Positions 1,598 through 58,773 of a stretch of 64,000 nt of DNA are shown here, piece by piece. The stretch comes from Pseudobdellovibrionaceae bacterium (lineage in GTDB: Bacteria; Bdellovibrionota; Bdellovibrionia; Bdellovibrionales; Bdellovibrionaceae). The notes below the pieces were generated by a model. The model made no database searches. It had not been told where the DNA came from and was given only the letters and a program-made list of their open reading frames with translations. A program made the translations under genes and the position numbers. The stretch spans positions 186,001-250,000 of the forward strand of contig JAHBUS010000002.1 in assembly GCA_019637955.1 (NCBI GenBank). The letters are read 5' to 3'. The stretch's first letter is position 1; every line of letters begins with the position of its first letter.

Positions 1598-2761
1598 ATG
1601 CGTTTCTTGATCCTCTTCCTGCCGCTGCTTTTGAGCCCCGTCGCGGGTTGGTCGCAGAACACCGTCGATCTTGCCGAGTGGAGCAAGAAAATCGAATGGG
1701 CGGGCGATCTTCGCTACCGTTTTGCCAAAGCCAAAGAAAGCATCGATGACGAGCGCAGCTACCAACAGCTTCGCGCGCGTCTGGGCGTGCGCGCCGACGT
1801 CAACGAAAATACCCAGGCCGTGATCCGCTTCGCCACCGGTTCGAGCGCGATCAGCACCAACCAAACCTTGGGCGACGCCAAAGATCCCGGCATGCCCCGT
1901 CGCACGTTTGGCCTCGATCTTGGGTACATCGATTGGACGTTCGCGAAAGGCGGCAAAATCTGGGCGGGCCGCGCGGCCAATCCGTTCTGGTCGCCGGCCA
2001 AAGTGCAAACCGTTTTCGATTCGGATTTGGCCTTTGAAGGCCTCGCGGTCAAGTGGGAACCGAAGTGGAGCGCGTCGTCGGCTTTTGTGAATCTCGGCGG
2101 CTTTATCATCTCGGAAAATTTTGATTCTCCGTACGATGTCGTCGATACCGGCATCGCGGCCGCCGAGATCGGCTACTCGCAAAAAACTCCCATCGGCACC
2201 CTCACCGGCCGGGTCGGGACTTACCATTTTTTGAACATCCAAGATAAACAGATCAATGCCGTCGAGAAAGACGGAAAAGTCGATGCCTACTCGTACCCCT
2301 TTGATCGCTACCGCGGAAACACCGTGTACCCGAACGATCCGCTCGCGGCTCCCGACCAACGCAAGTATTACTTCCAAAATAAATACGTTTTGCAAGCCAT
2401 GGGTCTCGAGTGGAAACACAAGATTGGTCCCATCGAGCCGGCTCTTTTCTACGAGATCGTGAAGAATACCGAAGTCGACGATCAGAACACCGCCGTGGAG
2501 TACGGGTTTGCCGCCAAATGGGGCCGCACGTCTCTCAGCTGGGCCTTCATCGAAAAGCAAACCGACAGCATTGTCGGCACCTTTACGGATAGCGACACGA
2601 ACGGCGGCGGAACCGATAACAAGGGCACGCGCCTTTCTCTGGCGTATCAACTGAGCGACAACTCGTTGGTCGGTTTCAACCAGTTCCGCGCCACCCGCGG
2701 TGTCCATTCGGTGTCTCGCGATTACACCGGTTCGCAGCTGGATTTCGTCGTCAGCTTCTAA
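1598..2761 (+). CDS. Outer-membrane porin, Porin_5 (putative porin) type
   Basis: A 387-residue protein with a signal peptide (residues 1-20, ending GWSQ) and then an alternating beta-strand pattern to the end, closing with a strand that ends in VSF, the classic C-terminal aromatic signature of barrel proteins. Right after the signal come GDLRYRF and LRARLGV, and then NQTLGD...RRTFGLDLGYIDW, features of the putative-porin family common in Bdellovibrio-like bacteria. The gene at 8232 is a clear paralogue and shares the LRxRxGV, NQTLGD and RRxxGLDxxYxDW blocks. The family forms diffusion channels. Substrate is unknown, though the neighbouring pstS makes an anion plausible. No strong ribosome binding site is visible. 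Confidence 0.8.
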   Translation: MRFLILFLPLLLSPVAGWSQNTVDLAEWSKKIEWAGDLRYRFAKAKESIDDERSYQQLRARLGVRADVNENTQAVIRFATGSSAISTNQTLGDAKDPGMPRRTFGLDLGYIDWTFAKGGKIWAGRAANPFWSPAKVQTVFDSDLAFEGLAVKWEPKWSASSAFVNLGGFIISENFDSPYDVVDTGIAAAEIGYSQKTPIGTLTGRVGTYHFLNIQDKQINAVEKDGKVDAYSYPFDRYRGNTVYPNDPLAAPDQRKYYFQNKYVLQAMGLEWKHKIGPIEPALFYEIVKNTEVDDQNTAVEYGFAAKWGRTSLSWAFIEKQTDSIVGTFTDSDTNGGGTDNKGTRLSLAYQLSDNSLVGFNQFRATRGVHSVSRDYTGSQLDFVVSF

Positions 2762-17123: not shown

Positions 17124-17138
17124 AAAATTCTAAAACAA

Positions 17139-17181
17139 GGCACCTTTGGTGCTTTAAAAAAACCAGGCACCTTTGGTGCTA
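17139..17181. repeat. Two direct copies of a GCACC-TTT-GGTGC hairpin
   Basis: GGCACCTTTGGTGCT occurs at 17140-17154 and 17167-17181, 27 bp apart, separated by an A-rich linker. Each copy is a five-base-pair hairpin with a TTT loop. The left half (AGGCACCTTT) equals one arm of the stop-linked palindrome found elsewhere in the window. They sit between the TetR stop and the ribosome binding site of the next gene. Confidence 0.7.
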
Positions 17182-17199
17182 AAAAAAGGGGATCGCAAA

Positions 17200-54318: not shown

Positions 54319-55194
54319 TCACACCGGTTTCAGCATCGTGCGGTCCAGAGCCCCAAGCACGCGCTCGAGATCGTGCGAGAGCTTGCGGAAGTCTTCCAGC
54401 GTGAGGGCTTGAAAACCGTCCGAGAGCGCTTCGGCAGGACGCGGGTGAACTTCGACGATCAAACCGTCCGCGCCCGCGACGGCGGCGGCCAGCGCGAGTT
54501 TGGGAACAAATTCGCGAATGCCGACGGCGTGCGAGGGGTCGACGACGACGGGGAAGCTCGTGCGGGATTTGGCGACGAGAACCGCGTTGAGATCGAAGGT
54601 GTTGCGGGTTGAAGTTTCGAACGTGCGGATGCCGCGTTCGCAGAGAATGATATTTTGATTGCCGCCAATAGTGATGTACTCGGCGGCTTTGATCCACTCA
54701 TCGACGAGCGCCGAGAAACCGCGTTTCAAAAGAACGGGTTTGCGGGTTTGGCCGAGTTCTTTCAAGAGCGCGTAGTTGAACATGTTGCGCGCGCCGACCT
54801 GGTACATGCCCACGAGCGGATCGAGAAGTTCCACTTGGCGGGGGTCGGTGATTTCCGAAACGAGTTGCAGCCCCGTGTGATCGAGAACTTCGCGGATGAA
54901 GCCGACGGCTTCGGGACCCAGCCCCTGAAAGGATTGGTGGCTGGTGCGCATTTTCCAAATTCCGCCGCGCAAAAGAACCGCGCCCGATTTTTTGACGGCG
55001 GTGGCGGTCTCGAAAAACTGCTCACGGCTTTCGATCGAACACGGACCGGCGATCACCGCGAACTCGGGGCCACCGATGGTGACATTGCCGACTTTCACGG
55101 GTTTGGTTTTCGATGCCGATGATGCCGAGAGGCTTGACGACGGCGTCAGATCGGTTTTCAGATGCGCCTCGTTTAAGGGAACGTGGTCTTTCAT
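54319..55194 (-). CDS. aroF: 3-deoxy-7-phosphoheptulonate (DAHP) synthase, type I-beta
   Basis: 291 residues. A Ser/Thr-rich leader of about 35 residues is followed by the barrel: VIAGPCSIES (PEP site), LLRGGIWKMRTSHQSFQGLG with the variant of KPRTSPYSFQG, QVGARNMFNYALLKELG, VLLKRG, and VDPSHAVG near the end. No ACT or chorismate-mutase domain for feedback is visible. It starts the shikimate pathway from PEP and erythrose-4-phosphate. Co-transcribed with menG and divergent (47 bp) from menF. Confidence 0.92.
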   Translation of the reverse strand: MKDHVPLNEAHLKTDLTPSSSLSASSASKTKPVKVGNVTIGGPEFAVIAGPCSIESREQFFETATAVKKSGAVLLRGGIWKMRTSHQSFQGLGPEAVGFIREVLDHTGLQLVSEITDPRQVELLDPLVGMYQVGARNMFNYALLKELGQTRKPVLLKRGFSALVDEWIKAAEYITIGGNQNIILCERGIRTFETSTRNTFDLNAVLVAKSRTSFPVVVDPSHAVGIREFVPKLALAAAVAGADGLIVEVHPRPAEALSDGFQALTLEDFRKLSHDLERVLGALDRTMLKPV

Positions 55195-55241
55195 GCGGTC
55201 GGTCCCACTTTCAGTTGCTAGTCCGGGCTGAGACTTGTAGC

Positions 55242-56336
55242 ATGAACACCACTCTTTGGAAAGGCCATATGTCGGTTGAAAAAATTCCCGCCGATTTAGC
55301 TAGGTTCTTGAATTCAGGGGCTTTTTATCGCCTCTCGCCGGACCGCTTTCGTTTGTATTGGGGACCCTGGAAACCGCTCCAGGACGGGGTGACCGACGGT
55401 TTTCATTTGGCTTTCCAGGATTTCTTCGCCAGCGAACTAAAAAGTTACCAGGCCACCGAGATTCAAGAGTTCAGCCGCGGCGATTTGATTCGGTTCTTGG
55501 AGCCCGCTTTGGGCACCGGAACCCGCTGGAGCAAGAACGCGTTTCAAGAACCCGACCGCGCCGGTTTTGAAACCAGCTTCCAAATCATCCAAGGTAAAAT
55601 CCAGCGTGGCGAAATCGAAAAGGCCGTGCCGATCGCCACGGCCCGTTCAGCGGTGAAGCCCGAGATGGAAGACATCGCGGGCGGCATGCTCAAGATGCTG
55701 AGCCTGCCGGCGGAGCTGCACGTTTACGGCTACTGGAACGAAAGCCGCGGGCTTTTGGGCGCCACGCCCGAAGTTCTTTTTCATCGCAAAGCCATGGTCG
55801 TGCAAACGATGGCGCTCGCGGGCTCGATGCCCAAAGAGGACGCCGCCACCCGCACCCCGCTGCTCAAAGATCCCAAAGAGATGCGCGAGCACGAGCTCGT
55901 CGTCAACGATCTGATGGCGCGCCTCAAGCCGCTGGGCTGGCTCAAAAAGCACGAGACCGAAGTTCTCGAGCTGCCGACGCTCTTTCACTTGAAAACAAAA
56001 TTCGAAATCAGTGGCTGCGCGAAGCGCGACCCTGAGCTCGTTCGCCTCTTGCACCCCACGCCCGCTTTGGGCGTGGCGCCCAGGGCCTACGGCTTTCAGT
56101 GGCTGCGCGAACTTCCGGATCAAAAAGACCGCGGCCTTTTTGGCGCGCCGGTTTTGTTCAGCCTTTCGAACGACGAGACGCTGGCGCTCGTCGCGATCCG
56201 TTCAATTCTCTGGGACGAGAACGGCTCGCGCGTGTCTTCGGGCTGCGGCCTGGTCGCGACGTCGGAGCTCGAACGCGAATGGCACGAACTCGCGGTGAAA
56301 CGGCGCACTCTGTTCTCGCTTCTGGGACTGACTTGA
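55242..56336 (+). CDS. menF: Isochorismate synthase
   Basis: 364 residues from ATG 55242; ATG 55269 with AAAGG upstream is a fair alternative. The chorismate-binding fold is shown by LLGATPEVLFHRKAMVVQTMALAGS, then EHELVVNDL, LPTLFHLKTKFE and HPTPALGVAPR, and the SSGCGLV metal-site end. It isomerises chorismate to isochorismate, the entry to menaquinone. The stop overlaps menD (TGATG). Confidence 0.92.
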   Translation: MNTTLWKGHMSVEKIPADLARFLNSGAFYRLSPDRFRLYWGPWKPLQDGVTDGFHLAFQDFFASELKSYQATEIQEFSRGDLIRFLEPALGTGTRWSKNAFQEPDRAGFETSFQIIQGKIQRGEIEKAVPIATARSAVKPEMEDIAGGMLKMLSLPAELHVYGYWNESRGLLGATPEVLFHRKAMVVQTMALAGSMPKEDAATRTPLLKDPKEMREHELVVNDLMARLKPLGWLKKHETEVLELPTLFHLKTKFEISGCAKRDPELVRLLHPTPALGVAPRAYGFQWLRELPDQKDRGLFGAPVLFSLSNDETLALVAIRSILWDENGSRVSSGCGLVATSELEREWHELAVKRRTLFSLLGLT

Positions 56337-57895
56337 TGTCGACCACCCTGGGCGAACGCAACTTGCAAATCTCGATGCGAACTCTGGAGGCCGTTCTGGC
56401 CTCGGGCGTGCGCGAATTCTGCGTGTGCGCCGGCGCCCGCAATGCCCCCTTTGTCGCTCAACTTGAAGTCACCGAGGGCGTGCGAATTTTTCCGTTCTTC
56501 GACGAGCGAGCGGCCGCGTTCTTCGCGCTCGGCCGGATCCGAGATTTGAACCGACCGGTCGCGGTCGTGATGACCTCAGGCACGGCCGTCGCCGAAACGC
56601 TGCCGGCGGTGATCGAAGCTTACTACCAAGGAATGCCGCTGATGGTGATCTCGGCCGACCGCCCTTCGCGATTTCGCGGCACGGGCGCCCCGCAGTCCAT
56701 CGAGCAGGTCGGCATTTTTTCCTCCTATGTGGAAAAGTGCCTGGATATCGAGGGCGAAAGCCCCGTCGAACTCGCGGCATGGAGCGGGCTCCGACCGCTG
56801 CACTTAAATCTCTGCCTCGAGGAGCCTTCGGGCCCGCAAGCGACGGCCATGATGAGCGCACGCGAGCTGACAAAACGGCGGACGCCCACGTTCAACGCGC
56901 CGTCGATGCAGGCGCACACGCTCTCCAAGCCGGTCGTCATCGTCGGTCCTTTGCAGGAAGACGAGAAGGCGTCGGTGCAAGATTTCTTGAATCAAAATGA
57001 AGTGCCTTTCGTCGCCGAAGGACCCTCAGGGCTGACGCTCGAACCGTCGACCTGGCGCCGCCGCATTTTATGTCCCGAGAAAACGCTGCCATTCGGTTTT
57101 CAATCGCAGGTCCTCGGTTCCGTGCTTCGTCTTGGCGGGGTGCCGACCCTGCGTTTTTGGCGCGATCTCGAAGAGCGTTTCGCGAAGATCCCGGTGACCT
57201 CGTGCTCGAACGCGGGATTCTCGGGCTTGGCGCGCGACGTGACTCAGTTTCGTGGTCTGCAAGATCTGGCCACGATGCGAATTCTGGAGCCGATGTCGTT
57301 CGCGTTCATGGACCGCGATCAAGAAACCTTCGAGCGCCTTTTGATTTTGCTGCAGAAGTACCCGCGCTCGGAAGCCTCGCTGGTCCGCGACTTCGCCGTG
57401 GCCGCGCATGAGGATCACGTGTACCTCGGGAACAGTCTGCCGATTCGCGAATGGGATTTGGTGAGCGGCGATCTTTCCGCGCCGGACGTGTGGGCGAATC
57501 GTGGGGCCAACGGCATTGACGGACAAATTTCGTCGTTTTTAGGGTGGACGCAAAATTCAGGACGCACGGCTTGGGCTTTGATCGGGGACTTGACCGCGCT
57601 CTACGATCTTTCGGCGCCCTGGATCACCAAATCTCTGGAGCCCCGTGACCGCCGGGTGGTGATCATCAACAACTTCGGCGGTCAAATCTTTAAGTCCATG
57701 TTCAAGCGCGATCTCTTTCTCAACCGCCACGACATTCATTTCGAATCGTGGGCGCGGATGTGGGGTTGGAGTTATCTGTCGAGCGAAGACGGCGCCGTTT
57801 TCAATTCATCGTCGTTCAGTCACGATCAAATCATCGAACTGCGTCCCGACGAAAAATCATCTGATTTTTTCAGTCAAGAGTGGAGAGCGCTGTGA
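56336..57895 (+). CDS. menD: SEPHCHC synthase
   Basis: 519 residues from ATG 56336. A thiamine-diphosphate enzyme: the catalytic Glu in FPFFDERAAAFFALG, TSGTAVAETLPAVIEAYYQGMPL, and the cofactor motif GDLTALYDLSA with INNFGG. It joins 2-oxoglutarate to isochorismate. Somewhat shorter than the 550-residue norm. It ends in EWRAL-stop, and the codons for WRAL plus stop are repeated three more times downstream in the 29-bp tandem array. Confidence 0.93.
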   Translation: MSTTLGERNLQISMRTLEAVLASGVREFCVCAGARNAPFVAQLEVTEGVRIFPFFDERAAAFFALGRIRDLNRPVAVVMTSGTAVAETLPAVIEAYYQGMPLMVISADRPSRFRGTGAPQSIEQVGIFSSYVEKCLDIEGESPVELAAWSGLRPLHLNLCLEEPSGPQATAMMSARELTKRRTPTFNAPSMQAHTLSKPVVIVGPLQEDEKASVQDFLNQNEVPFVAEGPSGLTLEPSTWRRRILCPEKTLPFGFQSQVLGSVLRLGGVPTLRFWRDLEERFAKIPVTSCSNAGFSGLARDVTQFRGLQDLATMRILEPMSFAFMDRDQETFERLLILLQKYPRSEASLVRDFAVAAHEDHVYLGNSLPIREWDLVSGDLSAPDVWANRGANGIDGQISSFLGWTQNSGRTAWALIGDLTALYDLSAPWITKSLEPRDRRVVIINNFGGQIFKSMFKRDLFLNRHDIHFESWARMWGWSYLSSEDGAVFNSSSFSHDQIIELRPDEKSSDFFSQEWRAL

Positions 57896-57982
57896 CGCTC
57901 GTCAGATGTTGGAGAGCGCTGTGACGCTCGTCAGATGTTGGAGAGCGCTGTGACGCTCGTTGAATGTTGGAGAGCGCTGTGA
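57882..57982 (+). repeat. 29-bp tandem repeat, about 3.5 copies, spanning the menD/menH junction
   Basis: The core GGAGAGCGCTGTGACGCTCG starts at 57882, 57911 and 57940 with period 29, and a fourth partial copy starts at 57969. Each copy contains a ribosome-binding-like GGAGAG and an overlapping GTGA start/stop. The third unit differs slightly (GTTGAATG in place of GTCAGATG). Confidence 0.92.
57892..57982 (+). other. Relay of three overlapping 10-codon mini-ORFs
   Basis: GTG starts at 57892, 57921 and 57950 each open a ten-residue frame (VTLVRCWRAL twice, then VTLVECWRAL) ending in TGA at 57922-57924, 57951-57953 and 57980-57982. Each stop overlaps the next GTG by two bases. The first GTG overlaps the menD stop and the last TGA overlaps the menH GTG. 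Whether ribosomes relay through it is untested. Confidence 0.6.
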
Positions 57983-58773
57983 AGCTTCTGGTTCTTCCGG
58001 GGTTTCTAGGCACACGCCGGGACTTTGATGGATGGACGGCGGATCTGAGGCGCGCGCTCGCCGAGCGCGGCTTTGCGGAGTTTGAAGACGTGCGCGTGAT
58101 GGCGGTCTGCCAAGACGAGTTTCTCGCGCCGATGGGTTCATGGTCGGACTGGAATCGCAAGGTTTTGCTCGAAATCGAAAATTGGAAGGGCTCGTCTGAT
58201 CTCTATGCCGTCGGCTACTCGCTCGGCGGTCGACTGCTGCTCTCGCTCCACGCGGCACGGCCCGATCTCTTTGCCAAATTGGTTTTTCTCTCGGTGAACC
58301 CGGGGCTTCGCGACCCTGATGACCCTTCGCTTTCGCTTCAAGACGTGGGACGAGCCGAACTCGAGCGCGTGACACGTAAAACGAACGACGAGATCTGGGG
58401 TCAGCGGTTTTTCGAGGCGCCGTGGGAGCCGCTGATCAACGAGTGGCAGACGCAGCCCGTGTTTCGTGATTCGGTTCACGAGCCCGAGCGGCTCGAGAAC
58501 GACTACGACCGTGCCGTGCTGGCACGAGTCTTAACCACATTTTCGCTCGCGGACCAGCCGGACTTTCGAAATTGGATCCGTCGATCCCAGACCGAACAGC
58601 TCTGGCTCGCCGGGGAGAAGGATCCCAAATTCGTGGGCTTTGTCCAAGAGCTCATCGACTCTAAATTCGAGCACATCAAGGGCGGCATCGTGCCCAAGGC
58701 GTCGCACCGAATTTTCTTGGACAACCCGCGCTTCACATCCCGGCGGGTTGCGGAATTCTTTCAACCTTCTTGA
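57979..58773 (+). CDS. menH: MenH-like alpha/beta hydrolase (SHCHC synthase)
   Basis: 264 residues from GTG 57979, five bases after GGAGAG; ATG 57964 would add five residues encoded by the repeat. It opens LLVLPGFLGTRRDFDGW, the MenH oxyanion start, with nucleophile elbow GYSLGGRLLL and histidine in PKASHRIF. It removes pyruvate from SEPHCHC in menaquinone synthesis. Position after menD supports this. The 3' end overlaps the convergent protease gene by 41 bp. Confidence 0.87.
   Translation: MKLLVLPGFLGTRRDFDGWTADLRRALAERGFAEFEDVRVMAVCQDEFLAPMGSWSDWNRKVLLEIENWKGSSDLYAVGYSLGGRLLLSLHAARPDLFAKLVFLSVNPGLRDPDDPSLSLQDVGRAELERVTRKTNDEIWGQRFFEAPWEPLINEWQTQPVFRDSVHEPERLENDYDRAVLARVLTTFSLADQPDFRNWIRRSQTEQLWLAGEKDPKFVGFVQELIDSKFEHIKGGIVPKASHRIFLDNPRFTSRRVAEFFQPS

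Follow-up and report, generated by a model that had tools for sequence, protein, structure and literature searches.

menD and menH are genes of the vitamin K pathway. Where one follows the other in the DNA analyzed here (a 64,000-nt stretch of a Pseudobdellovibrionaceae genome, hereafter "the window"), the junction between them is present in several tandem copies. How did this arrangement arise, and could a ribosome that has finished menD still reach menH through it?

A 29-bp tandem array at the menD/menH junction

TRF finds a tandem array at 57881-57986 with a period of 29, 3.7 copies, 94% matches and no indels; its score, 184, is the highest of any array in the window. Three full 29-bp units are followed by a partial copy that comprises only the first 15 nt of the unit (Table 1). 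There are exactly four occurrences of the 15-mer core, TGGAGAGCGCTGTGA, spaced 29 bp apart, and none in any of 100 dinucleotide shuffles. These near-identical units, placed head to tail beyond chance expectation, make the locus a tandem repeat (minisatellite) and confirm the proposal of an earlier note that a 29-bp unit holding the stop/start junction was duplicated in tandem. In every copy, a Shine-Dalgarno-like GGAG precedes a GTGA stop/start overlap, with six bases separating the GGAG from the GTG of each start. The earlier note correctly described the menD stop as overlapping the menH start, but the sequence that it gave, GGAGAG-GCGCT-GTGA, has one G too many; the junction reads GGAG-AGCGCT-GTGA.

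There is no difference between units 1 and 2; in unit 3, three positions are substituted (GTCAGATG to GTTGAATG), all within the spacer. The core is intact in every copy, a weak sign of constraint given that the three changes are clustered. The 14-nt spacer, a point against the slippage reading discussed below, has no significant match in either flank from which the first duplication could be traced. No array of the core was found elsewhere in the 3.77-Mb genome with up to two mismatches allowed, and the exact core is also confined to this array. An RNA hairpin was considered as a functional element and rejected: one unit folds by itself into a hairpin of -10.1 kcal/mol whose loop holds the GTG, and the z-scores of the single unit (-1.56) and of the whole array (-0.30) are not significant.

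Reading frames across the array

An isochorismate synthase-like ORF occupies the menF position upstream, and its stop overlaps the menD start as TGATG. The menD product ends in WRAL, with the TGA at 57893-57895. The downstream ORF scores 106.8 bits against TIGR03695, below the curated cut-off of 208.55; the name menH therefore rests also on position and fold. Its N-terminus can be aligned by eye with the MenH-like starts of relatives. An in-frame ATG at 57964, which directly follows TGA and has no Shine-Dalgarno-like sequence, is a possible alternative start.

Between the two genes lie three ten-codon GTG frames, and the overlap on which the last one ends is the menH start. As the earlier note had calculated, this is a matter of unit length: because 29 is 2 mod 3, each copy opens a ten-codon frame whose stop lies in the following overlap. 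We infer that these predicted short ORFs would be translated. The relay is, by itself, no sign of design. We collapsed the junction to a single copy and listed every possible duplication of 15-60 bp spanning the GGAG-to-GTGA stretch; one third gave a relay, comprising essentially all those of length 2 mod 3. Thus, a third of random duplications would yield one.

Table 1. Features at the menD/menH junction, gene-end arrays of the same genome and duplicated junctions of other genomes. Positions are those of the window unless another stretch is named; peptides are written without the stop.
Feature	Position	Strand	Evidence and remarks
Isochorismate synthase-like ORF (menF position)	55113..56336	+	PF00425, 142.8 bits; TIGR00543, 154 bits, below cut-off
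menD	56336..57895	+	TIGR00173, 265.2 bits, above cut-off 244.2
29-bp tandem array	units at 57881, 57910, 57939; partial copy 57968-57982	+	TRF and core count
Short ORF 1, VTLVRCWRAL	57892..57924	+	predicted by frame reading; starts on menD stop (GTGA)
Short ORF 2, VTLVRCWRAL	57921..57953	+	predicted by frame reading
Short ORF 3, VTLVECWRAL	57950..57982	+	predicted by frame reading; stops on menH start (GTGA)
menH-like alpha/beta hydrolase	57979..58773	+	PF00561, PF12697; GTG at 57979, GGAG six bases upstream
Gene-end 24-32-bp arrays	window 17132-17187; L075 19741-19805; L121 19332-19407; L058 16107-16166; L153 12794-12856; L090 16595-16678
PntB to NorB-like protein	L160		23-bp unit; short ORF MNNLRSNL
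E1-dehydrogenase/transketolase-like protein to ORF without Pfam match	L167		26-bp unit; short ORF MKLVDGASL
ABC ATPase to MlaD protein	L168		35-bp unit; short ORF MIISAQQTGEMI
FlgH to FlgI	L178 (G008, same family), 2006-2095		units of 25, 25 and 26 bp, four junction copies; chained short ORFs MNSYAGKSYE and MNQLRRKEL

The junction in relatives

menD was present in 57 of the 60 genomes searched. We inspected the menD/menH junction in 49 relatives and could assign the start in 45. Exact 4-nt overlaps (21/45) were matched in number by other overlaps (21/45), and the start lay just past the stop in three, where all starts other than those at -4 were picked mechanically as the nearest candidate. 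Repeats at the junction were found in none of the 45, and two scans of GTDB contigs returned no relatives nearer than those compared. That the ancestral junction was a stop/start overlap, as the earlier note supposed, is well supported by this comparison. The pair is co-oriented, and its overlap or near-overlap is kept in relatives, as expected of coupled genes; menH translation is probably coupled to that of menD. The retention of the overlap across the family suggests that coupling matters.

Repeats elsewhere in the genome

As a repeat background, we used 2.06 Mb of the 3.77-Mb genome, taken in stretches. In this sample, 24-32-bp arrays of 2-2.6 copies sit at several gene ends (Table 1). Several have a visible inverted repeat, and these arrays are perhaps duplicated terminators. 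Within the 2.06 Mb, no array other than that at menD/menH is placed on a same-strand stop/start overlap, and none of the 24-32-bp gene-end arrays has as many copies. The occurrence of such arrays in the same genome favors ordinary slippage as the source of the one at menD/menH.

Longer units were also seen. Tandem 45-bp units at L057 4941-5115 and L090 10180-10279 share AGAGCGCAGGATGCGC on opposite strands, which suggests a dispersed repeat. Tandem 56-bp units at L096 11013-11168 and L098 588-723 share TACATGTCCACGAGT and are possibly another.

Duplicated junctions in other genomes

We surveyed 369 genomes of the phylum for repeats of GGAG-N5/N6/N7-RTGA with 8-38 nt between them, and 141 genomes of the order for the variants AGGA-N6, AGGA-N7 and GGAG-N8. 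Matches with identical or near-identical spacers were chosen by eye, and the plausible ones were retrieved. Four independent tandem duplications of 4-nt stop/start overlaps emerged (L160, L167, L168 and L178; Table 1). All four contain short ORFs, whose first part comes from the downstream gene's start and whose last part comes from the upstream gene's end. At L160, the downstream protein begins MNNE and the upstream protein ends LRSNL; among NorB-like homologues, no comparable single-copy junction with pntB was found. At L178, the ATG of the second copy is also in frame into FlgI. Congeners of L167 (L183-L185) and of L178 (L187, from G025, where flgH and flgI meet at a single TAATG) have single-copy junctions; the duplications at L167 and L178 are therefore derived. 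By analogy, these similar and independent outcomes, two of which have congeners with a single copy, support the earlier note's account of how the menD/menH relay arose.

The unit length is 2 mod 3 in three of the four duplications. With menD/menH included, this holds for four of the five clean overlap cases (P = 0.045 against an expectation of one third), a post hoc count of cases sorted by hand. Surviving duplications may favor relay-preserving unit lengths; we regard this not as a result but as a hypothesis to be taken to a larger survey.

At L164 and L165, the upstream protein has become longer through the duplication, with the overlap retained at the final copy. Other retrieved candidates (L166, L170-L174, L176, L180 and L181) were rejected as not being stop/start-overlap duplications, and L162 and L163 were set aside either for having no such overlap or for doubtful ORFs. 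Further matches, for example those in G085, G187, G019, G344 and G282, were dismissed on the matched strings, which have units of 0 mod 3 and are apparently repetitive coding sequence. In the open-access literature, a coverage outside which most subscription papers fall, we found no account of tandem stop/start-overlap duplication as such.

Origin and possible consequences of the array

We think it probable that slippage duplicated a coupled junction and that the copies were tolerated since coupling survives. The old menD/menH overlap was, in this lineage, duplicated in tandem to three extra copies, presumably through replication slippage. A ribosome ending menD would then most likely restart at 57892, translate ten codons and terminate at the following overlap, eventually reaching menH. 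Such passage would be possible because each copy has its own GGAG and GTGA and because the unit is 2 mod 3. Fresh ribosomes could also load at any copy. The effect would probably be near-neutral, with both the coupling and the last start site left intact, and hence the array would be tolerated. In its period, copy number and identity, the array resembles the 24-32-bp gene-end arrays of the genome, and it departs from them in the site and copy number given above. It shares with known sites of termination-reinitiation at ATGA or GTGA the 4-nt overlap, the Shine-Dalgarno-like sequence ahead of it and the conservation in relatives, but differs in having four overlaps in series and three ten-codon ORFs between the genes.

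The short ORFs could instead go unused. Ribosomes would then initiate MenH independently, either at the last GGAG-GTG or at the ATG at 57964, and the extra copies would be inert. Indeed, in the last copy both GGAG and GTG are complete and normally spaced, and duplications at gene ends also exist without any coding role. However, the overlap is kept across the family, and all three short ORFs are open; we regard this alternative as rather unlikely, while giving it more weight than any other rival. The earlier note suggested a rheostat, in which slippage would add or remove relay steps and thereby tune MenH against MenD. Tandem identical units can change in number, and two are identical here; further, the composition of the mycobacterial interspersed repetitive units (MIRUs) at senX3-regX3 varies between strains, with three 77-bp units in H37Rv versus two 77-bp units plus a 53-bp one in CDC1551 (PMC4213456). 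Yet the menH start is kept at every copy number, such that any effects would be graded and perhaps small, and we know of no reason for tuning MenH in this manner. The rheostat is thus a conjecture that we find distinctly improbable. The phase variation invoked along with it is likewise unsupported, and an on/off switch is not to be expected given that a 29-bp change leaves the last Shine-Dalgarno-GTG of menH untouched.

Could the array have come from outside, or from the assembly? In MIRUs, the nearest known parallel, an ORF within the repeat is coupled to the gene that follows at a spacing of -4 nt, so that expression is little disturbed (PMC12548453), and a dispersed mobile element of this type inserted at the menH start would have a like architecture. 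The menD/menH array likewise consists of tandem units at a gene junction, in which the in-unit ORF and the next start share 4 nt, with GTGA at every unit boundary. But according to their descriptions MIRUs are dispersed and seemingly mobile, and their units measure 53-77 bp, whereas the 29-bp unit at menD/menH is a local duplication of the junction where it lies, at one site in 3.77 Mb. This confinement of the exact core largely refutes an insertion, and the short ORFs end in WRAL, the same as menD; we give the mobile element almost no credence. The array would work in a MIRU-like way and yet is no MIRU, because it is not dispersed. An assembly artefact, at which the two identical units might hint, is very nearly as implausible: unit 3 has three substitutions, and the array spans only about 100 bp inside a 513-kb contig.

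A more general scheme can be imagined, in which bacterial operons repeatedly gain chains of junction-made short ORFs when stop/start overlaps are duplicated in tandem, selection for coupling narrows the unit lengths to 2 mod 3, and the relays can adjust the ratio of operon partners. We hold this full scheme to be doubtful. What deserves to be kept is the recurrence of junction duplications and their tendency to leave room for coupling. Should the length bias hold in a larger survey, such duplications would amount to a natural experiment on translational coupling, with the surviving lengths showing what an operon tolerates. They are, further, a simple source of new short ORFs. They are also a trap for gene callers, which could set the downstream start at an upstream copy; the ATG at 57964 in menH and the extended in-frame FlgI ORF at L178 are possible instances.

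Other arrays near gene starts

Two arrays seen in the survey lie near gene starts at some distance from the upstream stop. On the reverse strand of L161 (G009, same family), at 2094-2177, three copies of a 35-bp unit precede the gene for ribosomal protein L20. Every copy repeats the L20 start, MRVKG, and the upstream stop is about 60 nt away. On the reverse strand of L179 (G056, same order), at about 2000-2095, units of 17 and 26 bp form four ATGA-chained short ORFs (MRPMTRNSI, MKRNSL, MTPMKRNSI and MTRNSI, each followed by a stop). This chain begins some 30 nt past the upstream stop and precedes a PAS-histidine kinase ORF.
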